Part shown: positions 4,826 through 21,764 of the stretch, piece by piece
How the letters are laid out: the number at the start of each line of letters is the position of its first letter
Position numbering within the stretch: the stretch's first letter is position 1
IMG/VR virus record: IMGVR_UViG_3300027901_000263
Coordinates: 1-21,885 of that record
Source: a virus
Strand: one strand, 5' to 3'
Length of the DNA stretch: 21,885 nucleotides
The notes under the pieces: generated by a model
Database searches by the model: none
The model's input: only the letters and a program-made list of their open reading frames with translations
Told to the model about the DNA's origin: nothing
Program-made: the position numbers and the translations under genes

Positions 4826-4901
4826 AATTACTAGGGCGGAGGCAACCAAGGGCTGTTTTACGGCTCCCTACAAAGCTCTTGGTTGCCTCTCTAGGTATCT
4901 C
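4826..4901 (+). repeat. Conserved intergenic element, copy A (with hairpin)
   Basis: A 76-bp element in the 172-base gap between the SSB-like gene and the 96-residue gene. It shares three blocks with copy B at 7820-7895 at identical spacing and without gaps: aattactag, 12 bases, caagggcYgtttt, 34 bases, ggtatcKc. By hand count about 43 of 76 positions agree. In this copy 4839-4853 pairs with 4875-4889 (15 bp with one G-U), enclosing a 21-base loop in which TGT and ACA can pair again. No T-run follows, so it is not an ordinary terminator. Function unknown: an RNA regulatory element or protein binding site are both possible. Confidence 0.6.
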
Positions 4902-4959
4902 AAAATTCGAGACAAATATAACACGAACTTTTTTAATCCAGAAGTAGCAAGGAGGGAAT

Positions 4960-5250
4960 ATGACGTCAGAAGAGAGACAGAAGGCCGTCCTAAAGGCGAT
5001 CAAAGCTATGCCTCTTATTCCAGCGACTATAGCTGAGAAGGTCGATGCTGTATATGCGCCTTTGATCCAGCAAGCCCGTCAAGAGGTAGCACAAAGCATG
5101 ATTGATTGGCTGGAACACCACCTATTCTATACTGCACTTCAATATGATGGTAGCTCAATGCTACACCTACTAACTAACGAGACTAAATCGGCTGAGAAGT
5201 GGGAAGCCTTTAAGGAATCTCTGAAATTCAAATATGGAGGTAAAAAATGA
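4960..5250 (+). CDS. Hypothetical phage protein, 96 residues
   Basis: Not recognised. It is a small soluble, mostly helical protein without cysteines or membrane segments; helices span about 3-15, 22-48 and 77-90. An excellent Shine-Dalgarno, AAGGAGGG at 4949-4956, precedes the ATG, and the long leader (172 bases with element A) suggests its own regulation or a new transcript start. Its stop codon overlaps the start of the following 31-residue membrane peptide, so the two are probably translationally coupled. No function is claimed. Confidence 0.75.
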   Translation: MTSEERQKAVLKAIKAMPLIPATIAEKVDAVYAPLIQQARQEVAQSMIDWLEHHLFYTALQYDGSSMLHLLTNETKSAEKWEAFKESLKFKYGGKK

Positions 5251-5342
5251 GTAAGAAAGTTACGCTATCGTTCTTTCTTGTGTACATCCTAGGCACTAGT
5301 ATCGGGATAGCTATAGGTTACTTATTCTGGGGACTATCATGA
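5247..5342 (+). CDS. 31-residue single-span membrane peptide
   Basis: A small gene linked on both sides by ATGA overlaps: its ATG at 5247 overlaps the stop of the 96-residue gene, and its TGA at 5340-5342 overlaps the ATG of the VRR-NUC gene. GGAGG at 5236-5240 gives a six-base spacer. The peptide is MSKK followed by about 26 hydrophobic residues with small residues in G-x3-G-like spacing (ILGTSIGIAIGYLFWG), a good helical membrane span with a positively charged cytoplasmic end. Role unknown; superinfection exclusion or membrane anchoring are guesses. Confidence 0.65.
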   Translation: MSKKVTLSFFLVYILGTSIGIAIGYLFWGLS

Positions 5343-5638
5343 GCGAACATCAACTAGTAAGGAAGATACTCAAAGCGCTCAGAGAGACTTATCCTGATGA
5401 TGTATGGTACAAGATCTACACTGGGCCTTACCAAGAACGTGGAGTTCCTGACATCCTAGGTTGCCACAACGGTAGGTTCATCGCTTTCGAAGTCAAAACT
5501 CCAGAGCGCATGTCTAGAGAAGGTCCTACACTCTACCAGAAACGTCAACTAGAGAAGATCAAAAAAGCTGGTGGCATAGCTAGAGCTATTACTTCTCCAC
5601 AAGAAGCCCTGGCCGCAATTGGAAAAAGAAAATCTTGA
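5339..5638 (+). CDS. VRR-NUC domain nuclease
   Basis: Stand-alone VRR-NUC (PF08774) PD-(D/E)XK nuclease, 99 residues, as in many phages, where it commonly sits next to an SNF2 helicase as here. The core motif is GVPDILG (about 35-41), then FIAFEVKTP with the E-x-K pair, then a Q-x3-L helix (YQKRQLEKIKKAGG). The N-terminal helix SEHQLVRKILKALRE is typical of the family. VRR-NUC proteins of this type are known or predicted to cut branched DNA. Start ATG 5339 overlaps the previous stop, and no strong Shine-Dalgarno is seen, so translation likely depends on coupling. Confidence 0.88.
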   Translation: MSEHQLVRKILKALRETYPDDVWYKIYTGPYQERGVPDILGCHNGRFIAFEVKTPERMSREGPTLYQKRQLEKIKKAGGIARAITSPQEALAAIGKRKS

Positions 5639-5670
5639 AACGTATTGGAGATTTTCTAAAACCAATTCGA

Positions 5671-5727
5671 TTTACCCCCTAAAATACTCCTTACCCCCAT
5701 TTACAAATTTTACCCAGGGGTATAGAA
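5671..5727 (+). repeat. Three TTACCC direct repeats with 19-bp period
   Basis: Three copies of YTTACCC begin at 5671, 5690 and 5709, exactly 19 bp apart, in the 96-base gap before the helicase gene. The third copy is part of a dyad, TACCC-AG-GGGTA (5711-5722). Near two helical turns of spacing puts the sites on roughly one face of the DNA. They overlap the proposed promoter, so a regulator or initiator binding array is the natural reading. Confidence 0.55.
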
Positions 5728-5733
5728 TATAAT
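5700..5733 (+). promoter_or_regulatory. Putative sigma70-type promoter for a leaderless helicase mRNA
   Basis: TTTACA (5700-5705) and TAGAAT (5723-5728) are 17 bases apart, which would start RNA near the GTG at 5735. TATAAT at 5728-5733 would instead start it at about the ATG at 5741. Either way the transcript would have almost no leader, which fits the absence of a Shine-Dalgarno before 5735/5741. The region overlaps the 19-bp repeats. Prediction from sequence only. Confidence 0.4.
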
Positions 5734-5740
5734 CGTGACG

Positions 5741-7738
5741 ATGAGAAAAGAGCACAAACTCAAATCACTAGTAAGAGCTAAACCCTACTCACACCAGAAA
5801 GAGGCTTTTTCTATAGCCACAGACTTAGATCAATCAGCCTTGATCATGGAGCAAGGAACAGGTAAGACGCTTCCGGCTATAGCAGCTATAGGGTACAGAC
5901 ATAGTCAAGGCGAAGTCAACAGAGTACTTGTCATCTGCCCAGCAACAGTCTCCACAGTCTGGGAGGATGAGTTCGAAAAGAACGCCCTCTTCGACTATGA
6001 ACTGCTCAACCTAGTAGATCTGAAGACTGAGAAGAGAAAGCAGTTGCTCAATCAAGCTAAGGGCCCACTTCAAGTAGCCGTCATCAACTACGAGTCATCC
6101 TGGCGAGAGATAGATCTTCTGCTCAAATGGAAGCCAGAGATGATCATCCTGGACGAATCACAGAAAGTCAAGAACGGCAAGAAGAAACAGTCTAAAGCTG
6201 CTCACAAATTAGGGAAGCTCGCCAACTTTAAGATGATTCTAACGGGGACCCCAGTTAGTCAAGGTCCACTGGATATGTGGTCACAGTATAGATTCCTTAG
6301 CTCTGAGATCTTCGGTAGAAGATTCGTTCCCTTCCGTGAAAGATACGCTATCATGGGTGGCTATATGAATCATAAGGTAGTTGGGTATCAGCGACTTAGA
6401 GAACTTACCAGAAAGGTATATAGCATCGCTTATAGAGTCACCAGAGACGAAGCTCTAGACTTGCCGCCTACGATAGATCAGGACTTGAAGGTCACTCTCT
6501 CTAGTGAAGCCTTAAAGGTTTACAAGCAGATGGAGCGGGACTTCATTATAGGCTTCCGAAACGGAGACTACGCAACAGCTCCTATTATACTCACACAGTT
6601 GCTAAGACTCCAACAGATTACGGGAGGCTTCATCACCACAGAGAAGCACAACACAGTCAAGATCGACTCAGCTAAGCTGAACGTAGTCAGAGAGCTATTG
6701 GAAGACTTACCAAGCACCAAGAAAGTGGTCATCTTTGCAAGGTTCATTCCTGAAGTAGACGCCCTCATGGCGATCACTAAGGAATTGGACATCCCAGCTG
6801 TGAAGCTCACCGGCGAGGTCGATAACCGGGAGAGGGGAAGGTTAATCAAGGAGTTCCAGACCAACCCCAGGCTTAGAGTCTTCATAGCACAGATACAGAC
6901 AGGAGGACTGGGAATAACACTCACTGCTGCAGACACCGCCATCTTCTACTCTACGACCTTTAGCTTTGCTGACTATGAACAGTCCAAAGCCAGACTCCAT
7001 AGGATAGGGCAGCATCACCCAGTCACTTATATCCACTTGATTACAGGAGGGACAATAGATGAGGAGATAATACAGGTCATCAGGGACAAAGAGAAAATGG
7101 CAGACAAGGTTCTAGCACAGAGACTTGCAAGGAGGACTATGATATCACTCGAGAAAGAAAACCCAGAAACTGATTGGTACTGGGATGAAACCGACGGGTC
7201 AGTTATTAGATGGCTCGACAGAAAGGAAGGTGCAGTAGAGACACTAGGGAAAGCAAAGACAGAAGTAGACGCCAAGAAACTCGTAACGAAATTCAATAAA
7301 GGAGGACTAAGAACAATGGCAGTAGCCAAGAAGAAAGTCAAGAAGACCAAACTCGTCCAGGAAGAAGAAGAGATCGACACCAAGCAGCTAGAAGAGCTAG
7401 CTGAAGATGAATCAGAACAGGAGGGAAAGAAAGTGACAAAGGAACCCAAGAAAGTCAAGAAGGCTAAGAAAGCCAAGGTCGAGGAAGAGGAACCCAAGAA
7501 ATCTAAGAAGGCTAAGAGAACCAAGGAAGAGAAGGAGGAGAAGCCTCCTAAGAAAGCAGCCAAGGTCACAGAGATGATCACCGTAATCGACCTGGCCAAG
7601 GAGTTCAAGAAGGAAGAGAAAGTTATCCGCCGGGCTCTAAGGGAACTTTTCCCTGAGCATGAACCTCGCACTCCTTGGGAGTTCAAACCCGGGGGAAAGG
7701 ACCACCAGAAAGTCCAAAAACACTTCAACAAGAAGTAA
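5741..7738 (+). CDS. SNF2-family DNA helicase with charged linker and C-terminal domain
   Basis: Superfamily 2 SNF2-type DNA translocase, 665 residues from ATG 5741 (GTG 5735 is a two-codon longer alternative). Numbering from 5735: Walker A EQGTGKT (39-45), motif Ia LVICPATV, motif II DESQ (140-143), motif III TGTP (170-173), motif IV VVIFARF (about 331-337), motif V QTGGLGITLTAAD and motif VI QSKARLHRIGQ (about 388-426). The enzyme core ends near 475. Then follow WYWDETDGSVIRWLDR, a K/E-rich low-complexity linker (530-600) and a small domain (about 605-667) with a helix-turn-helix look (DLAKEFKKEEKVIRRALR). GGAGG at 7301-7305 and an in-frame ATG at 7316 lie at the junction, so the tail may also be made alone. 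With VRR-NUC upstream it likely remodels replication or recombination intermediates. Confidence 0.92.
   Translation: MRKEHKLKSLVRAKPYSHQKEAFSIATDLDQSALIMEQGTGKTLPAIAAIGYRHSQGEVNRVLVICPATVSTVWEDEFEKNALFDYELLNLVDLKTEKRKQLLNQAKGPLQVAVINYESSWREIDLLLKWKPEMIILDESQKVKNGKKKQSKAAHKLGKLANFKMILTGTPVSQGPLDMWSQYRFLSSEIFGRRFVPFRERYAIMGGYMNHKVVGYQRLRELTRKVYSIAYRVTRDEALDLPPTIDQDLKVTLSSEALKVYKQMERDFIIGFRNGDYATAPIILTQLLRLQQITGGFITTEKHNTVKIDSAKLNVVRELLEDLPSTKKVVIFARFIPEVDALMAITKELDIPAVKLTGEVDNRERGRLIKEFQTNPRLRVFIAQIQTGGLGITLTAADTAIFYSTTFSFADYEQSKARLHRIGQHHPVTYIHLITGGTIDEEIIQVIRDKEKMADKVLAQRLARRTMISLEKENPETDWYWDETDGSVIRWLDRKEGAVETLGKAKTEVDAKKLVTKFNKGGLRTMAVAKKKVKKTKLVQEEEEIDTKQLEELAEDESEQEGKKVTKEPKKVKKAKKAKVEEEEPKKSKKAKRTKEEKEEKPPKKAAKVTEMITVIDLAKEFKKEEKVIRRALRELFPEHEPRTPWEFKPGGKDHQKVQKHFNKK
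7301..7318 (+). promoter_or_regulatory. Internal Shine-Dalgarno and in-frame start within the helicase gene
   Basis: AAAGGAGG ends at 7305 and an ATG follows at 7316, in the helicase frame (residue 528 from 5735). Initiation here would give a 140-residue protein of K/E-rich linker plus C-terminal domain. The site falls exactly at the border between helicase and tail, which is where a formerly separate gene would begin. Purine-rich coding for K and E can make such sites by chance. Confidence 0.4.
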
Positions 7739-7759
7739 ACCCTTTAACCTAACGAATAG

Positions 7760-7796
7760 GAGGGCCTGTACTACCCCCAGTACAGGCTCTCTTTTT
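7760..7796 (+). terminator. Rho-independent terminator of the replication operon
   Basis: A perfect 9-bp stem, 7764-7772 with 7779-7787, closes a six-base C-rich loop; neighbouring GGAG/CTCT bases extend the stem, and CTCTTTTTG follows. It lies 22 bases after the helicase stop. On the - strand the same hairpin lacks a following T-run, so it is directional, though it may slow leftward transcription of the converging virion operon. Confidence 0.85.
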
Positions 7797-7819
7797 GTGG
7801 TTTCAATTGCCACCCATGG

Positions 7820-7895
7820 AATTACTAGCAGGGACCTTGTCAAGGGCCGTTTTCGCTGCTCTAACAGCCGTCTTACTTTAATTTAAGGGTATCGC
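7820..7895 (+). repeat. Conserved intergenic element, copy B
   Basis: Second copy of the element at 4826-4901, located after the terminator in the 191-base gap between the converging operons. The blocks aattactag (7820), caagggccgtttt (7841) and ggtatcgc (7888) keep the spacing of copy A. The long stem of copy A is not kept here, but GGC-c-GTT (7845-7851) can pair with AAC-a-GCC (7863-7869). No gene follows in the + direction, so if it is a promoter or RNA element, its target here is not a protein gene on this strand. Confidence 0.55.
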
Positions 7896-7929
7896 GAGAC
7901 TACATTATTGAGGGGGTTATATTTAACAC

Positions 7930-8190
7930 CTAACTAAAGTGTCCTGTAAGGCAAAGCCCGATTATACAAGACATAGCGGCTAATATAAGCCCTAAGAGAA
8001 TCATCTGCCAGTTAGTTTTTTGGTTGATACCGTCTATTTTCCCATCTTGAATAATCATGTTAGGGATAATGGTAAAATGCATTACATCCCACATCTTATC
8101 TACTATCTTCTCCATTGTAGTAGGCTTTTCAGGCGGTGAATAAATTGAGTTCTTTTTATTGTTGATGAACCAAGTAACGAATTTGGGCAT
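7930..8190 (-). CDS. Small C-terminal-anchored membrane protein, holin candidate
   Basis: Last gene of the leftward operon, 86 residues. The N-terminal half is polar; a single hydrophobic span (about 62-82, WQMILLGLILAAMSCIIGLCL) is near the C-terminus. AAGGGAG lies 11 bases before the ATG at 8190; an internal ATG at 8115 is possible but has no ribosome site. Phage superfamilies of similar layout are annotated as haemolysin XhlA-like or holin-associated proteins, and the place at the end of the virion operon fits lysis. No specific family recognised. Confidence 0.6.
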   Translation of the reverse strand: MPKFVTWFINNKKNSIYSPPEKPTTMEKIVDKMWDVMHFTIIPNMIIQDGKIDGINQKTNWQMILLGLILAAMSCIIGLCLTGHFS

Positions 8191-8637: not shown

Positions 8638-8877
8638 TCAATCCTCCTTCTTCTTAAATTTTTTAATAAAATTATGTAACCTTTCGATTCCAAACCCCAA
8701 TATAGCAGCTGATAAAAGTAATTCAGCTATAAGTATCACTGGACATGGTTCATACAACCCCAATCCATGTACAGAAAACTCACCGTTTATCGCTATAAGT
8801 CCAAAGAGAAGCAATAAAAAAACACCTATAGCAATTAGCAATAGGTAGGCCAACATATCCTTTATTATATCTCTCAT
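8638..8877 (-). CDS. Small two-span membrane protein, holin candidate
   Basis: 79 residues. A strong span at about 10-30 (YLLLIAIGVFLLLLFGLIAI) and a second at about 46-64 (VILIAELLLSAAILGFGI), ending in a lysine-rich tail (KKFKKKED). Two spans with a basic C-terminus are typical of class II holins, an assignment supported only by layout. The start overlaps the upstream stop as TAATG, with no clear Shine-Dalgarno, so translation is probably coupled. Confidence 0.65.
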   Translation of the reverse strand: MRDIIKDMLAYLLLIAIGVFLLLLFGLIAINGEFSVHGLGLYEPCPVILIAELLLSAAILGFGIERLHNFIKKFKKKED

Positions 8878-9287
8878 TAGTGAAGATTAAACTCATACCA
8901 GGTGTTGATATTTGGAGAACCGGCTGAAACTGCTCTATAATAATAACTGGGTGGTACTATAAAGGTTATAGGAATATCATTATTCTCATTAAATCTAGTC
9001 TCAATGCAGCCTACATAAACTGATGGGGGACTTGAAGGACCAATATAGATGTGTATTTCCTCACCATCAACATTAAATATACCAGTGAGAACAACCAACC
9101 TTATCTTAGTGCTATTTTGGTAAATTGTATCGAGAGCTCTACTGGGAGCACTTCCACTTACGTCGTCTATTTTATCAACCTCATTCTTTAAATAGTCAAG
9201 ACTTCCACTTGCACCAAGATAACTATTCCATTGTGCCGCAGTGATTAAGTCTCCAGTTGTTCTAGTTACGCCTGCTGTCCAGCCCAT
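8877..9287 (-). CDS. Probable tail tip or short fibre protein
   Basis: 136 residues. The opening (TAGVTRTTGDLITAAQWNSYL) is a pattern often seen at the start of phage tail-tip or fibre proteins, where the helix around it anchors the protein. The C-terminal half is beta-rich and ends with IVPPSYYYRAVSAGS and a final W-Y-E, as in C-terminal domains of many fibre proteins. GGAGG precedes the ATG by nine bases, and the gene overlaps its upstream neighbour by 26 bases. Position after the tail tip gene supports a virion role. No enzymatic motif. Confidence 0.6.
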   Translation of the reverse strand: MGWTAGVTRTTGDLITAAQWNSYLGASGSLDYLKNEVDKIDDVSGSAPSRALDTIYQNSTKIRLVVLTGIFNVDGEEIHIYIGPSSPPSVYVGCIETRFNENNDIPITFIVPPSYYYRAVSAGSPNINTWYEFNLH

Positions 9288-9672
9288 TTAGGAGTTCCTC
9301 CTTATGCTCTTCATTCTCTTTGTCCAATTGTTCTAAAGTTTCTCCCGGAATCCAATTACGATTTTGAATCTGTCGTCTTAATAACAGTTTCTCAATTTGA
9401 TTTCTACCACTGGGGAAAACAGCTTGTCGATATTTATGTTTGTGACCGGCATTCCAACACGACTGACATATAAACCAACCCTCTTCCCACATCTTCTCAG
9501 CTCCCCCACACTCGCATCTAACTATCCAGCGCCCATGGTTAACTTCAGCCATAAGAGGTTCTGATTCAGAAATCTCTGGCTTCACCCCGTATTTCTCTAA
9601 CATGGGTTTAATAACAGATACGTTGTAAGCTTCCCATGATAGATTCAAATATGCATTAGCAGTTATTATCAT
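9262..9672 (-). CDS. Zinc-ribbon phage protein of unknown function
   Basis: 136 residues. A CxC ... CxxC zinc ribbon (RCECGG, then FICQSC about 15 residues later) sits in the middle; the N-terminal 45 residues are helical and the C-terminus is charged and helical (LEQLDKENEEHKEELL). AAGGAGG with a four-base spacer precedes the ATG. Similar small zinc proteins occur among tail genes of many phages without known role. It could be a tail assembly factor; no better call can be supported. Confidence 0.6.
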   Translation of the reverse strand: MIITANAYLNLSWEAYNVSVIKPMLEKYGVKPEISESEPLMAEVNHGRWIVRCECGGAEKMWEEGWFICQSCWNAGHKHKYRQAVFPSGRNQIEKLLLRRQIQNRNWIPGETLEQLDKENEEHKEELLNGLDSRRN

Positions 9673-9681
9673 GACCCCTCC

Positions 9682-10875
9682 TTAATAGCATAGATATGTG
9701 GTCTCCCCTATCTCACTATAGCCAGCAACACCCAGAGCCCAAAATTTTTGTTGTATTCCCTCAGCACAACTTAATTGCCACATAGTCTCCCAGGTGTAAT
9801 TGACTATGTCGATGGTATGCTGTATCCCCTCAATGAAGTAGTCCTCATCTAGGTCTGCCTCATTGCGCCTTAACGTTATTCTATCGCTAATCTCACGACC
9901 TAATACCTGGGGCCATAGATCAGCTGGATGAGATTCGGGAACGATCCGTAATTCTCTAGTCCTAAAGAACGGATCCTTATACGTCTTGAGTATAAAATTC
10001 GCTTGGTCTGCTGCTTCTCCATCGGTCGTCATAAATAAACCTGACTCAGAGAAAGAACGCTTACCGTAGGCAGTTTGACTGGTTGCATCAACTGCTGATT
10101 GCTGATTACCACCTTCGCGTTTTATTCTTACATCGTTATAGATTTGACTCGCTCCATAACGAGGTCTAAGACCATGATAAGGTTTCTCACCACTATCATC
10201 ACCGAAGGTAGCTTGACTAACTAGATGAGCGCCTTTCAAACGATGATGACGGTCTTCAAATTGCACATCACCGTCTCCAGCGATATAGATGATACCTAAT
10301 TCACTCTTCTGAACATTGAGTAAGTGTTCCCAAGCATTCACACTCTCCATAGCACCTGACGCTTGCATCTGACTTTGACCCGCATCTAAATCTCTTAATC
10401 CAGCAGGCCAACCAAAATGATCGAGTACGTTACCGATTCTAATACCACTTAACTCTTGTGAATAACCAGCATGATTGAGGTCGTATCTTGCTATATTAGC
10501 ACAGAGATCAGCGCATTGCGGTCTGACTATAGGAAATAATCCACCTTTCTCATCTATCCAAGCCGGATTCCAATCTTCAAGGAACCCTGTGAAAAGGTGA
10601 TAGGTCACCGCATCATAGATAGCATAAAGGTTAATACGTTTATTAGGCTTGACGTTAGGGTAGTAAGACCCACCGGTATTGTTCGGCCAATAATTACCAT
10701 GCCGATTGTTTAGTTCCAAGTCTGCTACAGCCGCCTGCATACGGTTTAGTTCGTGTTGTCTCCCACGTTTCGTGGTTATACTCCGCAAATCACTAGTTAT
10801 CACAGTCCAGCTCGGTGAAGCTGACATCGGGTCACTAGCAAAAGCTATACGTAATACTAAAGTTGGCCAGGCCAT
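9682..10875 (-). CDS. Tail tip / baseplate hub-like protein
   Basis: 397 residues directly after the tape measure, its start overlapping the tape measure stop as TAATG. The placement is that of the distal tail or hub gene in siphoviruses. The sequence is beta-rich with features common in these hubs: a first domain with ELNRMQAAVADLELNN (compare the domain that opens many tail-associated proteins), IYNDVRIKREGG in the middle, and ITLRRN and YFIEGIQHTID near the C-terminus. No peptidase or lysozyme motif is visible, so it is probably purely structural. Confidence 0.72.
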   Translation of the reverse strand: MAWPTLVLRIAFASDPMSASPSWTVITSDLRSITTKRGRQHELNRMQAAVADLELNNRHGNYWPNNTGGSYYPNVKPNKRINLYAIYDAVTYHLFTGFLEDWNPAWIDEKGGLFPIVRPQCADLCANIARYDLNHAGYSQELSGIRIGNVLDHFGWPAGLRDLDAGQSQMQASGAMESVNAWEHLLNVQKSELGIIYIAGDGDVQFEDRHHRLKGAHLVSQATFGDDSGEKPYHGLRPRYGASQIYNDVRIKREGGNQQSAVDATSQTAYGKRSFSESGLFMTTDGEAADQANFILKTYKDPFFRTRELRIVPESHPADLWPQVLGREISDRITLRRNEADLDEDYFIEGIQHTIDIVNYTWETMWQLSCAEGIQQKFWALGVAGYSEIGETTYLCY

Positions 10876-12683
10876 TATCCTAACCCCAATACGGCATTAT
10901 ATCTCTTCCTAGTTAGAAGCTGATCGTAAATAGTGTCTGCTAATTGACGCTCAGTTACCACACTACCATAAACTGTCACGTTGACCGTAGAGCCTAACGC
11001 ACCACCTTCAAATAATGGGATAACTGCTTCAGGACCACGTTCACCAATTATTGCTGTTGTAGGTCCAGTTACGATTCCCCCTTTTTCCATCTTGGTAGCG
11101 AACGTCGGGAATTTCCATTCAATCTCTTTCAAGTCTATACCCGGAAGTTTATTGATGAGTCTAATTACCCAATTTATACCCTCGATAACTCCGTTAACGA
11201 TGAGTCTAATAGGGGTTAAGACAATATCAACAAGCCTCCAAAATACAGCTTTAATCCCTTCAACCATGTTTACAAAAAATCCAACTATAGCATCAATCAC
11301 ACGCTTGAAGAAATTCCCCACAGCCTGGAAGGCTGCTTTCACCTTATCAAAATGCTTCACTACTAAGACGATTATCGCAATCAGGCCTGCTATAGCAAGA
11401 ATAATTAAACCTATAGGGTTAGCTGACATAACAGCATTTAGAGCCAATTGCACAGCAGTCCACACAATTGTGAGACCCTTTATTACGCCAATCACAGCTA
11501 TCAATTTGGGGAGTACAATCAAAATTGTACCTAAGACAGCTGCACCTGCAAGTAAAGCTATCGTTAGTTTAGGGTGCTCAGAAATCCACTCACCAATCTT
11601 CTCAATGATAGGTGTCACCATCCCCAACAACTTTGATAAGATGGGAAGTAAGGCTGTTCCTATTGTGATAGCTATATCTTGAAATTGAGCCTTTATCTTA
11701 GCGAATTTCCTGGAAGTACTTTCCTCCATCTGATCGAAAGCATCAGTGGCTGCTCCGGCAGAATTTGCCATATTGTCAAGGTCTTGTTGAAACGTCTCTG
11801 CATTTTTACCTGTTAATGCTAGGATGGCCTGAACCCCCTCTACAGAGCCGATGAGCTTACGGAGTTGCTCCATGTTACCGCTAGTAGCTTGAGTGACCAT
11901 GTCAAAAGCAGCAGCTAGTCCCTGATTTTTTATGACTGTGTCCAGATTAGTAATACCAAGCTCTTCCATCCTTTTCTTTTGTTCTGTGGCAGGAGCTGAT
12001 AGCGCTTGGATAGCCGCCCGCAGTTGTGTCGTCGCAACAGATGTAGGAACACCTTGCTTTGTGATAGAAGCTAATGCAGCTGCGACTTCCTCGAACTTTA
12101 CCCCTGAAGCAGCAGCTATAGGAGCTACATTAAACAGAGATGAGGACAGTTCTTCGAAGGTAGTCTTACCTCCCTTCACAGTGGTAAACATTACGTCAGC
12201 AACGTGTTGAGCTTCCTCTACTGGTATTTTGAAGGCATTGAGGACTGTCGTTAAGCCATCTACCGCAGTTGTAGTGTCCGTTACGCCGCCGATAGCAGCC
12301 TTTGTTGCTACCTCCAAGAAGGTAACTACATTTTCCTTAGGTATCCCCGCAGAAATGGCCTGATACAGCGCATTAGCGCTATCCGTTGCACTAACACCTA
12401 ACTCACGAGACATGTTCTGGATTTCTTTAGAGAACGACTTGAATTGTTCTTCACTAAGCAGCATCATGGTATTAACTTCACGCATAGCTGTATCGAAGTC
12501 TCCAGCCATCTTGAGTGAAGCACCACCGATTGCAAGTGTCGCTCCAACTAAAGCTACACCAGCCACCTTCATACGATGAGCTACCTTGTCAGAGAAGGTG
12601 CCCAACGATTTACCAGCACTATTTAGTCCCCGGTTAAGACCAGTGACATCTGCACCGATCTTAACTAATACGTCTGGCTTCAT
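10875..12683 (-). CDS. Tape measure protein (TP901 family)
   Basis: 602 residues. It sets tail length and is packed in the tail tube. The N-terminal third carries the TP901 core: MAGDFDTAMREVNTM, LGVSATDSANALYQAISAG, and the later TSVATTQLRAAIQAL. Two long hydrophobic stretches lie in the middle (about 375-405 and 415-445), as usual for proteins that insert in the host membrane during injection. The C-terminus ends with a GPEAVIPL motif seen in many tape measures. At the usual 0.15 nm per residue it predicts a tail of about 90 nm. GGAGG lies seven bases before the ATG, inside the end of the chaperone gene. No muramidase domain is present. Confidence 0.95.
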   Translation of the reverse strand: MKPDVLVKIGADVTGLNRGLNSAGKSLGTFSDKVAHRMKVAGVALVGATLAIGGASLKMAGDFDTAMREVNTMMLLSEEQFKSFSKEIQNMSRELGVSATDSANALYQAISAGIPKENVVTFLEVATKAAIGGVTDTTTAVDGLTTVLNAFKIPVEEAQHVADVMFTTVKGGKTTFEELSSSLFNVAPIAAASGVKFEEVAAALASITKQGVPTSVATTQLRAAIQALSAPATEQKKRMEELGITNLDTVIKNQGLAAAFDMVTQATSGNMEQLRKLIGSVEGVQAILALTGKNAETFQQDLDNMANSAGAATDAFDQMEESTSRKFAKIKAQFQDIAITIGTALLPILSKLLGMVTPIIEKIGEWISEHPKLTIALLAGAAVLGTILIVLPKLIAVIGVIKGLTIVWTAVQLALNAVMSANPIGLIILAIAGLIAIIVLVVKHFDKVKAAFQAVGNFFKRVIDAIVGFFVNMVEGIKAVFWRLVDIVLTPIRLIVNGVIEGINWVIRLINKLPGIDLKEIEWKFPTFATKMEKGGIVTGPTTAIIGERGPEAVIPLFEGGALGSTVNVTVYGSVVTERQLADTIYDQLLTRKRYNAVLGLG

Positions 12684-12686
12684 TCA

Positions 12687-13232
12687 TTATCCTCCCAATG
12701 CTTTACCAACAGCATTAGCCACAGACTCTAGGTTAGTCATGTCTATGAGTTTACCTATCCGCTCCCTTGTTGCAATATCGGGATACTCGCTACGAAGCAT
12801 AATAACAAGGGTGCGTCGTAATGCACTCATCTGTCGAGTTTGTAACAGATTGCCAACCTCTTCGAGAGACATATCAAATTCCTCTTCTAGATCAGCCATG
12901 ACATTCAAGTTCAAAGCAGGTAACTTATATTCTTTCCCATTTAACAGGGTGATAACCTGACTCTGCGGTTTACTTGTCAATCTCTTCTTAGTCATAACAC
13001 TCCTTTCTGGACACTTACCAATAATGTTCTCTGGTTTATATCGTCTAGTCCGAGTACTTACCAACGCACAGACGATTAGCGCTGCATTGTAGGAGTGAGC
13101 GTAACTCTCTATTGAACGAAGATACCAAATTTCCTCTACTAACGCATAGAGATATATTAAAGGTTGTTCTCGGATATATTCTAGAGTCCAACCAGTCTCC
13201 TTTACAATGAGCGCTATTAAATCATCCGTCAT
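12687..13232 (-). CDS. Tail assembly chaperone with fused, reversed domains
   Basis: 181 residues between tail tube and tape measure, the place of the G/GT chaperone pair. Residues 1-60 (LIALIVKETGWTLEYIREQP) look like the T part normally added by -1 frameshift. Residues 92-181 (LLNGKEYKLPALNLNVMADL, then LEEEFDMSLEEVG) look like the G part. In the usual arrangement G comes first and T is reached by slippage; here T comes first in one continuous frame. An internal AAAGGAG and ATG at 12995 begin the G part (102 residues). The long start at 13232 overlaps the tail tube stop and has no clear Shine-Dalgarno. Only four bases separate the stop from the tape measure start, leaving no room for a downstream T frame. 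Confidence 0.75.
   Translation of the reverse strand: MTDDLIALIVKETGWTLEYIREQPLIYLYALVEEIWYLRSIESYAHSYNAALIVCALVSTRTRRYKPENIIGKCPERSVMTKKRLTSKPQSQVITLLNGKEYKLPALNLNVMADLEEEFDMSLEEVGNLLQTRQMSALRRTLVIMLRSEYPDIATRERIGKLIDMTNLESVANAVGKALGG
12993..13006 (-). promoter_or_regulatory. Internal ribosome site and start within the tail chaperone gene
   Basis: Read on the - strand, AAAGGAG (13006-13000) is followed after four bases by ATG (12995-12993), in frame with the longer gene at residue 80. It would produce the G-like part alone in higher amount than the coupled full-length form, giving two products without a frameshift. Confidence 0.6.
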
Positions 13233-15435: not shown

Positions 15436-15746
15436 GGTGCTTCTTTCACCTCCAAACTATACTGCTGGGTAGTTTCTTGTACACCTGACTTAGTAGCGCG
15501 GACAACACAAAGAAATTCCCCCTCAGTAATGAAGTCGTTTTGTTGAACTGCATATCTCCAGGTTCCCTGCGTTGCCACGACGGGCTCGGCTGAACTACTG
15601 ACTATAGGATGCTTGGGATTACCCATTTCCCAAGCTTTAAAACTTAGAGTATAACCACTTAAATCGAACACGGACCCATCATCATTGGTTATTGTACCGT
15701 CCACATAAAACCCGAAATCACCTCTTTGGATTGTTAAATCAGCCAT
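15432..15746 (-). CDS. Ig-like BppU-N-type phage protein
   Basis: 104 residues, a single beta-sandwich. The opening (LTIQRGDFGFYVDGTITNDD) and the strands LSGYTLSFKAW, GTWRYAVQQNDF and GEFLCVVRATKSG match the pattern of the N-terminal domain of baseplate upper proteins, where it serves as an attachment domain. Here it stands alone. AAGGTGAG lies just before the ATG. Its neighbours are a repeat protein and the head-tail connector, so it may decorate the head or neck rather than the baseplate. Confidence 0.62.
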   Translation of the reverse strand: MADLTIQRGDFGFYVDGTITNDDGSVFDLSGYTLSFKAWEMGNPKHPIVSSSAEPVVATQGTWRYAVQQNDFITEGEFLCVVRATKSGVQETTQQYSLEVKEAP

Positions 15747-16404
15747 TTTGTCTCACCTTCCAATTATCAAACGTTCTACTAGGTATGCTCATCTCTAATT
15801 CTCTATTCCGCATGCTCATAGATAAAGATCTACCCAACATTGCCATAGTGATTGATTGATACCTAAACGTAGTTTCTAAAGCTAACATCGCTCTAGTTTG
15901 GGTCTGACTAAGTAAACCGAGGAAAACTAATGTATCAAGTTGAATTAAAAATCTAGTGTCTGTAACACTAAGTAATTCCAATGCGACTATAGTAGAACAA
16001 ACTAGATCTACTCTAGTGTTAACAATTAAACGAATAGTTAATGAAATCGACGAGGTGAATCCTAGACTTGCTCTAGTATCCCCCAGTGAACATAGGATTA
16101 ACTCCGCAATAACACCTAAGCTTAATGATGCCCTTGTATCAGTAAAAGATCTACACTCTAATTCTGGAGTAACTTGAATAATGAGAGCAGCTCTGGTACT
16201 ACTTGAAGAACTAAATACTAGACTAATCAGAGTATTTAACACCAAATTTGCATTGGTGTCCGACAAAACCCTAAGACATACAGAAACTTCTGTATTAGTA
16301 GTTAAGTCTACCCTTGAACTAGTATAACTTCGTAAGGAAAGCGTTACTACTTCACTCCGCTCTCCGTCAAAATAAATCTGGTCGAAATATGCAGAGTTAA
16401 ACAT
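15739..16404 (-). CDS. Virion-associated protein of eight 20-residue beta repeats
   Basis: 221 residues, not recognised as a known repeat family. The opening MFNSAYFDQIYFDGE is common in phage tail and fibre-associated proteins. Residues 21-180 are eight repeats of exactly 20 residues without gaps, with the pattern S-L-x-L-x-S-x-S-D-T-R-A-x-L-x-L-x-T-x-I. The alternating hydrophobic positions suggest short beta strands stacking as a solenoid or trimer. A non-repeat tail follows (MAMLGRSLSMSMRNRELEM). The T-R pair is the best conserved element. No Shine-Dalgarno precedes the ATG, but a 17-codon minigene ends across it. Structural role inferred from neighbours. Confidence 0.65.
   Translation of the reverse strand: MFNSAYFDQIYFDGERSEVVTLSLRSYTSSRVDLTTNTEVSVCLRVLSDTNANLVLNTLISLVFSSSSSTRAALIIQVTPELECRSFTDTRASLSLGVIAELILCSLGDTRASLGFTSSISLTIRLIVNTRVDLVCSTIVALELLSVTDTRFLIQLDTLVFLGLLSQTQTRAMLALETTFRYQSITMAMLGRSLSMSMRNRELEMSIPSRTFDNWKVRQNG
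15865..16344 (-). repeat. Eight tandem 60-bp coding repeats
   Basis: The repeats of the 221-residue protein are visible in the DNA as a period of exactly 60 bp: ctctagtRtY-type words (the T-R codons) recur near 15894, 15954, 16014 and 16074, with weaker copies at 16134, 16194 and 16254. Codons have diverged strongly while the period has not, so the array is old and its length is under selection, not a recent slippage product. Confidence 0.75.
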
Positions 16405-16934: not shown

Positions 16935-18425
16935 CTAGTCTATAGCGCCGAAGGTTGCAGCATCTTCGCTCTCGTCGGTACTATTCCCTGAGTATTGGTT
17001 GTTACTTGTGTAGGCGACCTGCGCTCCGTCTTCCGCTCGAATACCTACATTACAGTTACGGATTCTTACATATCCATCTGCGGCGGCTGCGTAAGTAACA
17101 GCTACTGCATTTAACTCGGTGTGCATCCCATAAATACCACTGGAGCTGTTGCCATCTATAATTGAGCCATTTAGTATGTTAGCAACCGCATTATTGTAGG
17201 CTGAAACACACTTGGCATTAGCTCTGGAAATGGATAACTTTGTCCTATAGGCATTTACAAGGCCGCTATCTTGTATCCATAAAGCCCTTGATGCACCAGG
17301 GTCGCCTATTATAAGCACATCGTATAAAAGGCAGCTGGCAGTGTATATATGAAGATAACAGGCTGCTAGTTTACACCTGTTTAGAGTACACTCAGAGAAC
17401 GGATAAAGTGTTAGCGCATCAGAAGTATCAAGTTCAATGTCATTGCCCACGATGCCTTTTTGTCCTGTTACAATAACCAACTTATTTATACTTGTTGCCC
17501 AGTCATAGACAACCCATGTTCCAGAGGGAGTTGCCGACCAGCAACCGACTATTGTCGCCACATCAGCCGTGTCAGAGTCAATGAGCCGGTACTCCGAATT
17601 GGCATACATCAGCATATTGTCATAGCTACCGAACTTACCAGTATCGGTAATGCTTCCCTGCGTAGCCCCTGTTCCCTGAACCGCCGATTCTATAGTAGCG
17701 GTGTCTTGCTGGCTTAATGTTCCCTGAAGGGTAATCGTATAATTTCCTGAAAACTGTTTGCCTTGAATTGTTACTGTTTCGTCATAGTCCTCACCGTTGA
17801 TGTTGATTATTACATTCCCACCCACTAAGCCTGGGATGCAATCAATGGCATATTGAACTGTTGCGAAAGCATCGGAATCAACACCCGTTCCATGGTTGAG
17901 GTCGTCTGTCCCATCGGTCTTGTCCACATAGACAGTCATGCTGCCGACAGAAATAATGGGAATCCATTTGCTGTTATATTGATATAGGATATTCCTCCCT
18001 GTCGGAGTATGGAGAAACCATTGCCAATTAGTCGGTGAAGTCGGCATAGTTGCCCCATTGTCGCAGACCATAGCAATGGCTTTATACTTGGCAAAATCCA
18101 AGTTGCCCGTTAAGGCTATTGAACCATCTTTTCTCAGGACACTATTCTGAATATCCTCAATTACCCCAGCCGTAACCCTCAATTCCACAGCCTTCCCAGA
18201 AGCGTGAGAGGCAGGAGTAGTGCTTTCAGCCCCCCTAGTAACTGTCAGGACATCGCCAGTTCTGGAAGTGCATTTGACTATCTCGTCCTCGCAGGTGATA
18301 TGGAAGTCCCCACTAGAAGGGAAATTAGCACCCTCGCCAGTGGCTACAGTCCATTCAGTATCATCATTATCTACTCCACTCGCCAGCGTGGAATATGCTC
18401 GATTTTTTACTTTGAGAAAACTCAT
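16935..18425 (-). CDS. Fibre or receptor-binding protein with beta-helix-like body
   Basis: 496 residues. Residues 12-75 form a beta module ending LTVTRGAESTTPASHASGKA, shared with the insertion in the head-tail connector gene. Residues 95-115 (RKDGSIALTGNLDFAKYKA) form the linker seen in many phage fibres. From about 165 the sequence (VYVDKTDGTDDLNHGTGVDS, then ATVQYAIDCIP) opens a right-handed beta-helix of the pectate-lyase type, with Asn- and Gly-rich turns to the end. No catalytic residues of a depolymerase can be picked out. AGGAG precedes the ATG. It lies upstream of the connector genes, so attachment to head rather than tail is possible. Confidence 0.75.
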   Translation of the reverse strand: MSFLKVKNRAYSTLASGVDNDDTEWTVATGEGANFPSSGDFHITCEDEIVKCTSRTGDVLTVTRGAESTTPASHASGKAVELRVTAGVIEDIQNSVLRKDGSIALTGNLDFAKYKAIAMVCDNGATMPTSPTNWQWFLHTPTGRNILYQYNSKWIPIISVGSMTVYVDKTDGTDDLNHGTGVDSDAFATVQYAIDCIPGLVGGNVIININGEDYDETVTIQGKQFSGNYTITLQGTLSQQDTATIESAVQGTGATQGSITDTGKFGSYDNMLMYANSEYRLIDSDTADVATIVGCWSATPSGTWVVYDWATSINKLVIVTGQKGIVGNDIELDTSDALTLYPFSECTLNRCKLAACYLHIYTASCLLYDVLIIGDPGASRALWIQDSGLVNAYRTKLSISRANAKCVSAYNNAVANILNGSIIDGNSSSGIYGMHTELNAVAVTYAAAADGYVRIRNCNVGIRAEDGAQVAYTSNNQYSGNSTDESEDAATFGAID

Positions 18426-18433
18426 TAGTTCTC

Positions 18434-18841
18434 CTATCCTGTTTTGTAAACACTTATGGCAACTTCAAGATCACCGACACCAACGGTCACACCATCAGAA
18501 CCAGTAGTCTTTGAAGTAGTAATAGTCGCAATATACAACACATTACCCCCTGTTGTTGCGTCCCAGATAGAAAAGTGAGTAATCTCCTGAGCAGCATCAA
18601 TCTCTGTTCCAGCCCATGCAAGTTGGGCCGTATTCTTAGAAATCTGCTCAGTTGCTGTCGTCGACGCAACCGCGGTCCCCATAGTCACAGGTTTCCTCAC
18701 TATATCAGCAGTCCCTACTTTAGCTTCATTCTCATCACCATCATTAGCTGGGTCCCCCGTATGAAGCATGACATGTGGTGATCCATCTCTCATATCCTCA
18801 TCCAGCTCTATATTTGCCTGCTCGAAACTCATTGGACACAT
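18434..18841 (-). CDS. Probable fibre or decoration protein
   Basis: 135 residues. The opening contains PHVMLHTGDPANDGDENEAK, a signature seen in a common phage tail or minor structural protein family, followed by a jelly-roll-like domain (ITHFSIWDATTGGNVLYIAT). AGGAGG with a five-base spacer supports the ATG at 18841; a second Met three codons later is an alternative. No cysteines apart from residue 2, no catalytic motif. Stops nine bases before the fibre gene. Confidence 0.65.
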   Translation of the reverse strand: MCPMSFEQANIELDEDMRDGSPHVMLHTGDPANDGDENEAKVGTADIVRKPVTMGTAVASTTATEQISKNTAQLAWAGTEIDAAQEITHFSIWDATTGGNVLYIATITTSKTTGSDGVTVGVGDLEVAISVYKTG

Positions 18842-18843
18842 TT

Positions 18844-19011
18844 TTACCTCCTACCTGTCCACCCGCAAATCGGGCATAACAGGTCTTCTTCTTTATTTTC
18901 TCTGAGCTCATTAAAACCACACTCAGGACATTGAGTTATTGACTTGGTCTTTTCCTCTTCTACGATTTTTTGATTTTCGTCTAGTATTTCTTTTAGTTGT
19001 TGCCAAGTCAT
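18844..19011 (-). CDS. 55-residue zinc-ribbon protein
   Basis: A short gene between the radical SAM gene and the 135-residue virion gene. The N-terminus is a charged helix (MTWQQLKEILDENQKIVEEE), followed by CPECG and, 14 residues later, CPICGW: two C-x2-C-G knuckles of a rubredoxin-type zinc ribbon. The ribosome site of the next gene (AGGAGG) is formed by its last codons, so the genes are coupled. Its own start has only a weak AGGATG. Function unknown; the next cluster of zinc proteins is at 9262-9672. Confidence 0.65.
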   Translation of the reverse strand: MTWQQLKEILDENQKIVEEEKTKSITQCPECGFNELRENKEEDLLCPICGWTGRR

Positions 19012-19041
19012 GTTTCACCATCCTATCACAGGGGGGTTTAT

Positions 19042-19830
19042 CTAGCCCTCTGTACAAGCTTTGCATTTTGGTAACTCATGCCCCCTTCCTTGTTTATGCA
19101 TTGATCGATATTCTCTGTGTAGATCACTGTTCCATATTTCCTCTATTGTATTTAAACTTAGATTCCCGAACGTCACTTCCCCTAATGGGTCAAAACAGCA
19201 GAGACAAACTTCTCCCGTATAGAGGACAGTCATTTGGTTAATCGCTCTAGGACAAGACGTCCAGCGTCGTCGATCGTAAGGGTATTGAGTACCAGCCCAA
19301 GACTGATAGCGGATGGCAATTCCACCTGATTCTATAAAAGCTCTCACCTCATCTTGACTAACTTCAGGATAAGCAACCATCGTAGCTCTATACTTAACAC
19401 CCTCATTCTCCATAAGTTTGAACATCTGTACCACATGCCAATAATCATCGAGACCCATAAGTTTTTTACGAGTCTCGGGTTTCAAACCGTTCAAGGATAC
19501 ACTAAGGTGGAAATTGGGTATCTCTTTGAGTTCGTAGATGATAGACTCGGTCAACAAACTACCATTTGTATAAACTTCTATTTCCACCTGAGGTAACTTC
19601 TCGCGCGCGAACTTCAATCTGTTCATAAAGTTCTTATCCAAAAATGGTTCTCCATTTAACATCGGGTGAAAAGTCTTCAAATTAGGTAACTGACTAGCCT
19701 CCTCGATAATCTTCGTATATAAATCGTCAGACATAGAACCTTTCTCCAAGATCTTCTCGTGAGGACAGAAAATACACTTCCCGTTACAATAGTTTGTAGT
19801 CTCTATCTGTAGATACATCAATTCATTCAT
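19042..19830 (-). CDS. Radical SAM protein with SPASM/Twitch-type C-terminus
   Basis: 262 residues. Radical SAM enzyme: C15-x3-C19-x2-C22 binds the 4Fe-4S cluster that cleaves S-adenosylmethionine; LNGEPFLD is the GGE-like SAM motif. The last 70 residues (CPRA, TGEVCLCCFDPLG, FGNL, IEEIWNS, CKAC) have the spacing of a SPASM or Twitch domain for an auxiliary Fe-S cluster. Such enzymes modify peptides, sugars or proteins; the substrate cannot be read from sequence. It starts four bases inside the end of the methyltransferase-glycosyltransferase gene, so both are made together. No short precursor-peptide gene with a leader is seen next to it, which argues against a RiPP role. Unusual among phage virion genes. 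Confidence 0.85.
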   Translation of the reverse strand: MNELMYLQIETTNYCNGKCIFCPHEKILEKGSMSDDLYTKIIEEASQLPNLKTFHPMLNGEPFLDKNFMNRLKFAREKLPQVEIEVYTNGSLLTESIIYELKEIPNFHLSVSLNGLKPETRKKLMGLDDYWHVVQMFKLMENEGVKYRATMVAYPEVSQDEVRAFIESGGIAIRYQSWAGTQYPYDRRRWTSCPRAINQMTVLYTGEVCLCCFDPLGEVTFGNLSLNTIEEIWNSDLHREYRSMHKQGRGHELPKCKACTEG

Positions 19831-21245
19831 GTCTTAATCTCCACAGTAGTAACTTCCCCATAAGGGTAGGGGTGAACGAACTCGTCCTTTCTCTGCTGAG
19901 AAGTGATAAAGTGAAGAAAGTGTTCTGTCCCTATTAAACCTTTCGCTTTATGCCCACAAATGACACCCATATCAACATGAATCTTAAATCCAGCTTCCTG
20001 AACTTTCCTACAGAAATAAAAATCTTCCCCCACATGTGTTCCGTCACTGTATTTAAACCATGGGGGTTCAATAGCATCCAATACTCGACGATGCACTAAG
20101 ATACAACCAGCACCTACTCCGTCACATTCAAGTAGATCCTCTTTCGTTGATGGTAAAATTATAGCATCACCACCATGTAATTTGTCCTTGTGTTTCAACA
20201 AGAACTTAGCTATAGGATCTACTATAGGTATGTAAAAATGTGCATTTCTCGCTTCCTCAGCATCACCCATATAAGCATACTTGTAACAGTGAGGATAAGG
20301 TGCTCCTGGTGACTTGAAATATAAACCAGACACGATAGGTAAATCCCAACTAAGTAATTTGGTTAGTGTCTCTGGTGCGAAAGTTTGATCTGCATCCATA
20401 AAGAATAGCCAGTCTTTCTCCAACTCACGAATGATTTGATTACGAGCTTCGTCAGCTGGTCTATGACTCACTTTAGAAAGTCTTACATCAATCGGCTTTT
20501 GCAGACCCACAAATGAATAGAACCACTCATCTGGGATTTCACCAAGACAAGGTACACCAATATGAACTCCACGACTCATACCGCCTTTGACGAAGTCACC
20601 GTTAGGTTGTTGTATCAAATTGACATCCCTACACATCTTTACAAAGTATTCTGAGTGATTGAAGTGCATGGGAAAAATATCCTGTTGCCCAAAATTAGAG
20701 CGATGATATAGAAAACCTCGATCCTTCAAACAACGTGAAATTTCACTAAGCAAACGAGGTAGTTTATCTTTGTGCACGTGTTCAAAGAAATCGTTCGCTA
20801 CAACGAGATCAAAGTCTCTTAATCCCTTAAAACTTGTGACAGTAGGAATACATAACCCCCGCTCTTTAAATCTCATCTCAGCAAAAGCTCTTAGTTTGGG
20901 GTTAATATCGCAATAAGTAACGTCATTACCGGCATAAGCTAGTTGAATACACAGTGTACCTATACCAGCCCCTATCTCCAGAATCCTTCGGCCGTGATAA
21001 GAGAGTAAAGGTGCATTCCACGATTTGTATACATCATTCTCATAGTTCCAAGGTATCAACTCATAGAGATAGAAGTCACCTTGCTTTTTATAAAATTCCT
21101 CGACTTCCTCTGGAGTTTTGGGGTTGGTAGCTTTCCAACGTTCCGCAGCAAAACTGACACGATAACCACGTACTTGCTGTAAAGCTTCCTCGTATGATAT
21201 ATCGAGGAATCTTGATAGTTCTCTTACTGTTAACTCGAAACTCAT
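19827..21245 (-). CDS. Fusion of SAM-dependent methyltransferase and GT-A glycosyltransferase
   Basis: 472 residues, two enzymes in one chain. Residues 1-75 are helical (LTVRELSRFLDISYEEALQQ). A class I methyltransferase follows: motif I ILEIGAGIG (88-96), acidic D113 after VTYC, and FDLVVANDFFEHV (145-157). From about 227 (VHIGVPCLGEIPDEW) a GT-A glycosyltransferase begins: RNQII, LFFMDADQTF with the DxD metal site (284-286), and GEDFYFCRKVQEAGFKI near 410-425. GGAGGG precedes the ATG by about ten bases. The upstream gap holds a G/C-rich hairpin. Likely targets are a virion protein, a host surface sugar or a small metabolite; all three are speculation. Confidence 0.85.
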   Translation of the reverse strand: MSFELTVRELSRFLDISYEEALQQVRGYRVSFAAERWKATNPKTPEEVEEFYKKQGDFYLYELIPWNYENDVYKSWNAPLLSYHGRRILEIGAGIGTLCIQLAYAGNDVTYCDINPKLRAFAEMRFKERGLCIPTVTSFKGLRDFDLVVANDFFEHVHKDKLPRLLSEISRCLKDRGFLYHRSNFGQQDIFPMHFNHSEYFVKMCRDVNLIQQPNGDFVKGGMSRGVHIGVPCLGEIPDEWFYSFVGLQKPIDVRLSKVSHRPADEARNQIIRELEKDWLFFMDADQTFAPETLTKLLSWDLPIVSGLYFKSPGAPYPHCYKYAYMGDAEEARNAHFYIPIVDPIAKFLLKHKDKLHGGDAIILPSTKEDLLECDGVGAGCILVHRRVLDAIEPPWFKYSDGTHVGEDFYFCRKVQEAGFKIHVDMGVICGHKAKGLIGTEHFLHFITSQQRKDEFVHPYPYGEVTTVEIKT

Positions 21246-21362: not shown

Positions 21363-21764
21363 CTACTGACTCACAGCAGCATACCGGGGATTGAAGCGAC
21401 AGTTAACAGCTGCGAATTTGTGTCCGGTCCCTGTTGCAGGAGTAAGCGTCATCCTGAGATAACGATACCCATCGGACATCTGATCAGCATTAACTTCTAT
21501 GACTTCAATCTGATTAGTGGTGGCACTAGCGATAGTCTTCGTTGCAAGATAAGCCGTCGAAAACTGCGTGGAATTAGTGCCTTCGGCTACAACTGCCGTA
21601 ATAGCTCCTTGCCACTGCGTAGCCCCGGCTACTGTGATGACTCCAGCAAAGTTGTTATACTTCGCCATGTCTACCGCTTCCCCATTAACTGCCTGAGCAG
21701 TTCTATAGGTAGCTGGTACCGGAATGCCATCATCTACTTTTATGTTTTCGTCTAACAAATGCAT
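21363..21764 (-). CDS. Probable virion protein (head decoration-like)
   Basis: 133 residues, first complete gene of the leftward operon in this window. The sequence is beta-rich without cysteine except one (VNCRFNPRYAA), with YNNFAGVITVAGATQWQG and YRYLRMTLTPATGTG strands; similar small proteins lie just after capsid genes in many phages. AGGAG about seven bases before ATG 21764 gives a sound start. No enzyme motif. A decoration or head-associated protein is the best guess, based on position and type of sequence. Confidence 0.6.
   Translation of the reverse strand: MHLLDENIKVDDGIPVPATYRTAQAVNGEAVDMAKYNNFAGVITVAGATQWQGAITAVVAEGTNSTQFSTAYLATKTIASATTNQIEVIEVNADQMSDGYRYLRMTLTPATGTGHKFAAVNCRFNPRYAAVSQ

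Follow-up and report, generated by a model that had tools for sequence, protein, structure and literature searches.

The window, by which we mean the whole stretch of DNA analyzed, is an entire virus record of 21,885 bases. The block of interest is transcribed from its minus strand, with the genes in the following order: a phrog_5707 gene, a fused methyltransferase–glycosyltransferase (MT-GT), a radical SAM enzyme (rSAM), a zinc-ribbon protein, a gp80/phrog_240 gene, and a fiber-like gene. These features, and the basis on which each was assigned, are as follows.

21363–21764, minus strand: DEC_I, a small virion-region gene of the phrog_5707 type, 133 aa (phrog_5707, E 2.4e-8)
19827–21245, minus strand: MT-GT, 472 aa (open reading frame, Pfam and PHROG matches, alignment)
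20694–20996, minus strand: predicted class I SAM-dependent methyltransferase (MT) domain, residues ~84–184 (Methyltransf_11/12/25)
19926–20573, minus strand: predicted short glycosyltransferase (GT) domain of GT-A/GT2 type, residues ~225–440 (Glycos_transf_2, phrog_1574)
19827–19830, minus strand: ATGA in which the end of MT-GT and the beginning of rSAM overlap (sequence)
19042–19830, minus strand: rSAM, 262 aa, with a single auxiliary [4Fe-4S] domain of the "twitch" type (PF04055, PF13186)
19765–19788, minus strand: CxxxCxxC (C15, C19, C22) for the radical SAM cluster (invariant in nine aligned sequences)
19054–19254, minus strand: auxiliary-cluster domain with C193, C211, C256, and C259 (alignment with relatives and BtrN)
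18844–19011, minus strand: zinc-ribbon protein, 55 aa, C-x2-C-x14-C-x2-C (open reading frame and motif)
18434–18841, minus strand: gp80/phrog_240 "head protein," context outside the module (PF23140, E 7.9e-19; phrog_240, E 2.5e-19)
16935–18425, minus strand: fiber-like gene between the block and the connector genes, context (phrog_8469 tail fiber, E 8.6e-19 over the N terminus)

Judging by the sequence, we read the ATGA overlap of MT-GT and rSAM as translational coupling. The capsid gene lies outside the window, as the record stops 121 bases beyond the 5' end of the phrog_5707 gene. An earlier reading of this DNA (hereafter the original prediction) had described a cassette made of MT-GT, rSAM, and the zinc ribbon, and its coordinates, four-base overlap, and enzyme domains were all borne out. 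Elsewhere in the window, positions 15739–16404 encode a strict 20-residue repeat with a [ST]DTRA-like motif (6 motif matches), which is also found in proteins encoded at 8822–10525 and 11978–12868 of the related locus L042 (11 and 8 motif matches, respectively). These look like repetitive beta-structured virion proteins, possibly fibers. Positions 1–2481 hold an open reading frame, cut at the record start, that by eye resembles a uracil-DNA-glycosylase–type domain followed by a family A DNA polymerase.

In MT-GT, Pfam recognizes Methyltransf_11/12/25 on the MT half (E 2.5e-13) and Glycos_transf_2 on the GT half (E 3.3e-5), the latter (PF00535) barely above its cut-off with 24.3 vs. 23.3 bits, while PHROGs assigns the GT domain to phrog_1574 (E 4.8e-14). 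The proteins of loci L042–L049 are 54–74% identical to that of the window. In an alignment of seven MT-GT sequences, where the relatives share 57–74% identity with the window protein, the DxD motif (D284, D286), the E407-D408 pair, and the motif I glycines G92/G94/G96 are all invariant. The MT half of the structural model matches UbiG with a Z score of 17.4 and an rmsd of 2.6 over 168 residues, and its motif I glycines and Rossmann-like fold are those of a class I SAM-dependent methyltransferase. The GT half was modeled with low pLDDT; its matches include predicted structures from viruses that carry the name GT-A or glycosyltransferase, and the solved-structure matches were filled by the MT domain. 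By its motifs, a DxD metal site and an ED pair, the GT half is predicted to be a GT-A/GT2 enzyme.

The rSAM protein matches Radical_SAM (PF04055, E 6.8e-18) and SPASM (PF13186, E 7e-14). C15, C19, and C22 are invariant in 9/9 aligned sequences. The original prediction had staked itself on the conservation of the catalytic residues among relatives, and all of those it named (C15/C19/C22, DxD, and motif I) are invariant. C193 and C211 are invariant as well, C256 and C259 are present in every row that reaches them (the L043 sequence is cut), and C212 is also conserved. The auxiliary-cluster domain that had been proposed is therefore present, but as the twitch form, since the protein has only four auxiliary cysteines, in BtrN positions, rather than the seven cysteines and two clusters of a full SPASM domain. 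BtrN ranked first both by profile (E 3.4e-24 vs. 8.7e-8 for anSME) and by fold (Z score of 22.6, rmsd of 2.9 over 224 residues). C193/C211/C256/C259 align with BtrN C169/C187/C232/C235, which we take to ligate the BtrN auxiliary cluster, and their spacing is identical (18, 45, and 3). On sequence and model, rSAM is thus predicted to be a BtrN-like twitch enzyme.

What such an enzyme might act on is less evident from its kinship. BtrN is a 2-deoxy-scyllo-inosamine dehydrogenase that oxidizes a sugar-like alcohol (a free aminocyclitol), DesII, BlsE, and SpeY act on sugars or sugar-like substrates, and SuiB, SkfB, and anSME act on peptides. DesII, BlsE, and SpeY rank below BtrN against rSAM, and the peptide-acting enzymes come near it in fold (Z scores of 20.8 for SuiB, 19.5 for SkfB, and 18.4 for anSME). 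Since the fold matches span sugar- and peptide-acting enzymes, fold alone cannot settle the substrate. One could imagine that rSAM is a peptide maturase of the anSME, SuiB, and SkfB type, making or altering a side chain that is later glycosylated or methylated. SPASM/twitch enzymes often act on peptides, these fold scores are close to that of BtrN, and a small cysteine-rich protein adjoins rSAM. However, the aminocyclitol enzyme BtrN comes first in both sequence and fold, there is a single auxiliary cluster, a protein of 262 residues is too short to hold a leader-binding domain as well, and no precursor-like gene was recognized, the sole small neighbor being a zinc ribbon of a type also present without rSAM. 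We thus consider a peptide maturase unlikely.

We next turn to the relatives. Among 50,697 phage records, the window rSAM has a single match, 26% identical, in MT835743, where the neighbor genes look bacterial. In the species genomes searched for relatives, the sole hit was a weak one in a Thaumarchaeota MAG, and it involved the methyltransferase part. Distant radical SAM genes (L002–L041; 21–42% identity over the best segment) were left out of the analysis. The closest relatives, group I, comprise L042–L047, L049, and the more divergent L070 and L071. MT-GT lies 3' of an HK97-type major capsid gene (PF05065, E 1.3e-42 in L042) in 9/9 of these loci, with DEC_I in between in eight (L042–L047, L070, and L071). 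The capsid gene, DEC_I, and MT-GT follow each other directly in seven (L042–L046, L070, and L071). In L047, a glycosyltransferase gene (4870–5946) separates DEC_I from the fusion, and a second extra glycosyltransferase lies behind rSAM. In L049, in which DEC_I was not detected, the capsid gene is separated from the fusion by several further genes plus a zinc ribbon, and the fusion has an insert between its two domains. Wherever the contig continues (L042, L043, L045, L046, L047, L070, and L071), rSAM is found 3' of the fusion, in L043 after a cytidylyltransferase-like gene and a 96-aa gene. The zinc ribbon, whose CPxC-x14-CPxC is conserved among relatives and for which no single family match above the cut-off was found, lies 3' of rSAM in L042, L046, L047 (cut), and L070. 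In L070, it is followed by a connector gene; L071 has neither zinc ribbon nor fibers there, and both lack gp80 at the place corresponding to the window. The pair sought by the original prediction in other phages hence occurs repeatedly at the same place, not only singly or in unrelated contexts.

The cytidylyltransferase-like gene of L043 (7401–7814) overlaps MT-GT by four bases and resembles CTP_transf_like, with an HSGH motif and a PF01467 match below the cut-off (E 0.035); judging by these features, it might possibly supply a nucleotide-sugar. The remark that no sugar synthesis gene is visible thus holds for the window but not for its relatives, where there are this gene and the two additional glycosyltransferases of L047. 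In L048, MT-GT (2727–4100) directly precedes two major-tail-protein–like genes and is therefore beside the tail tube rather than the capsid. We rejected this locus as proof of a fusion without rSAM because its contig starts just upstream of the zinc-ribbon match.

Profiles built from the cassette proteins identified a second set of loci, group II, with an unrelated capsid type whose proteins are distant relatives of the capsid protein of Myxococcus phage Mx8/Mx9. Here, the enzymes are encoded by separate genes, in the order capsid gene, cement-like gene (Phage_cement_2 in 3/12, best E 2.8e-4), rSAM, MT, zinc ribbon, and GT, followed by head–tail joining genes. The group II rSAM is 35–37% identical to that of the window and had no match in the 50,697 phage records, whereas MT belongs to another subfamily, with a weak profile comparison to the window MT. 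The group II GT profile had no match among solved structures. The order differs in L073 and L079, while in L075 and L076 rSAM and MT lie ahead of the terminase. The group II phage L051 has an MptE-like PF01973 gene (10315–11256) and another methyltransferase further downstream. Among the loci as a whole, L059 stands out with two methyltransferase genes in succession within one block (6810–7376 and 7220–8056).

Group III consists of 10 loci (L050, L062, and L083–L090) in which the capsid gene is followed by another small gene and a reversed GT-MT fusion, with no rSAM and no recognized zinc ribbon nearby. Its MT half is homologous to that of the window (hhalign probability 99.9–100). The DxD and ED motifs of GT are invariant across groups I and II, and their group III equivalents are LDSD and SED. 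In a fourth kind, represented by the complete virus genomes MW202496 and MW202711, the capsid gene is followed by a small gene (100 aa) and then by a GT that stands alone. A phrog_1574 GT homolog was also seen in the structural region (5001–5600) of L167 (BK063679), a virus assigned to Methanobacteriales, i.e., to an archaeal host.

Which parts of the block are essential to it? We drew a sample with the group II capsid protein alone, which gave 56 non-redundant loci with enough sequence. GT is present in 53/56, a detectable MT in 41/56, and rSAM in 15/56, and at least five to six changes in rSAM are needed on the group II capsid tree. These numbers show that GT and MT are the core, while rSAM is an add-on that comes and goes. 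The idea of three chemistries in one block consequently needs amending: they recur together, but they are not inseparable since rSAM is accessory in this capsid-drawn survey. That of a single modification pathway is supported by the fact that two capsid lineages, unrelated to each other, both carry the genes as a set, either fused or as separate genes. Zinc-ribbon genes occur in group II as well, with or without rSAM. In a first count, they were found in 18/19 loci with rSAM vs. 0/8 without, and by profile in 13/15 vs. 0/41, but correction for kinship leaves 3 informative pairs, and a looser motif scan shows the zinc ribbon in most rSAM-less group II loci. We therefore withdrew the zinc ribbon as an obligatory partner of rSAM; in groups I and II, its association is with the GT/MT module.

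The constant neighbor of the block is the major capsid gene, nearly always together with a small virion-region gene. Of the targets initially put forward (fibers, head, or host surface), the head is thus the one that is constantly adjacent, with the caveat that neighboring genes need not encode an enzyme and its substrate. Modification of the neighboring head or tail fibers (gp80 and the gene at 16935–18425), which would change receptor binding, is suggested by the fiber-like or repeat genes that come after the block in the window, L042, and L046. Yet the block of L070 and L071 is followed by connector genes, with neither gp80 nor fibers in between, and groups II and III have no adjoining fiber, which rules out the fibers as a constant neighbor and makes them an improbable target. 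DEC_I is a candidate decoration protein and a possible target. The capsid protein itself offers a candidate acceptor, to judge from its C terminus, which ends in a Ser/Thr tail (e.g., LASTTS or DTTIAS), with 3–4 Ser/Thr among the last 8 residues in group I and 2–5 in group II. In contrast, thirteen relatives taken as cassette-free have 0–2; of these, ~5 kb downstream was read in Dagobah, Mx9, ct52p938, ctMlz233, and ppBjS10J-1, and 0.6–1.5 kb in the others. This contrast is a lead rather than a test, being one between clades, and its low p-values therefore do not reflect independent events. With GT in nearly every member, group II affords no independent Ser/Thr contrast of its own. Such a tail fits the glycans reported in mycobacteriophages at the C termini of capsid and tail-tube subunits (PMC12619734, citing Freeman 2023).

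Taken together, these findings indicate that the block is a real, conserved virion-modification module. We directly observed its gene order, the overlap, the conserved catalytic residues, and its presence at an equivalent position in capsid lineages unrelated to each other; from these, we infer activities, a substrate, and an order of steps. Glycosylation of the capsid with a methylated, radical-edited sugar, where target, sugar, and radical step are all deduced, is the best reading and a reasonably probable one. The module would be expressed late and modify the virion as follows: 1) the GT domain would transfer a sugar from a nucleotide-sugar, made by the host judging by the window, to one of the virion proteins, the likeliest acceptors being the major capsid protein and the small decoration-like product of the gene immediately upstream; 2) the fused methyltransferase would then methylate, and so cap, the transferred sugar; and 3) the same glycan would be the site of C–H chemistry by the BtrN-like rSAM (oxidation, epimerization, or deoxygenation). 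The zinc ribbon would be a small accessory part. Several points speak against this reading. BtrN, the analogy on which the radical step would rest, acts on a free aminocyclitol and not on a protein-linked sugar, the L048 fusion lies beside a major tail protein, and rSAM and MT precede the terminase in L075 and L076.

Two further alternatives place the product outside the virion proteins. In the first, the host surface (lipopolysaccharide or capsule) would be modified against superinfection, a role proposed for clusters of glycosyltransferases, nucleotidyltransferases, and methyltransferases of this kind in large cyanophages (PMC7824862). Those clusters are separate, however, whereas in several lineages the block forms part of the late head operon, and we regard this alternative as highly improbable. 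In the second, the product would be hypermodified DNA, for which there is precedent in phage glycosyltransferases acting on DNA (Pyle 2024, as cited in PMC12619734), but the block sits among late head genes, at a distance from the replication genes, which are encoded on the opposite strand, and no base-modifying partner was recognized within the window, which leaves it barely credible. Returning to capsid glycosylation, we would more hesitantly extend it to propose that a viral pathway may coat the capsid with a radical-edited, methyl-capped, protein-bound glycan, in which the radical step has been gained and lost repeatedly as an add-on to a widespread glycosylation core. Our findings suggest that sugar decoration of phage heads may extend beyond mycobacteriophages, being common in uncultured phages whose capsids represent three or more lineages, and that an oxygen-sensitive radical step is added to it in some of them. 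The module offers a concrete gene set and a candidate acceptor, and raises the question of what use a sugar coat is to a phage outside an animal host.

Glycosylation of capsid and tail tube has been published for mycobacteriophages (Freeman 2023, as cited in PMC11600133 and PMC12619734). Corndog (cluster O) encodes an O-methyltransferase, two glycosyltransferases, and a putative N-acetylglucosaminyltransferase (gp35–38) between its portal and protease genes, for which its authors proposed capsid modification (PMC4351075). In the cluster J phages Thibault, Halley, and LittleE, the interval that separates capsid from connector genes contains glycosyltransferase and methyltransferase genes, LittleE gp17 being an MT-GT fusion (PMC3706429). 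We found that Halley gp15, encoded directly 3' of the capsid gene in a block that extends to the head-to-tail adaptor, is homologous to the window GT (63 bits, E 5.2e-18 in 5,628 open reading frames), while the other Halley GTs and the Halley MT had no match to the profiles of the window and its relatives. The window GT also belongs with phrog_1574, a family listed as "unknown function" in PHROGs, its copy being fused to a methyltransferase. Similar to BtrN in fold, length class, single auxiliary cluster, and identical spacing of four auxiliary cysteines, the window rSAM is only 22–27% identical to it and is encoded in a phage head operon, whereas BtrN serves an antibiotic pathway. Like the mycobacteriophage blocks, the window cassette has glycosyltransferase and SAM-dependent methyltransferase functions inside the head operon and, with a homologous GT, would by its sequence be of the same type. 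In contrast, the annotation of the Halley block includes neither a radical SAM nor a zinc-ribbon gene, and it is the radical SAM component that is new with respect to known virion glycosylation.
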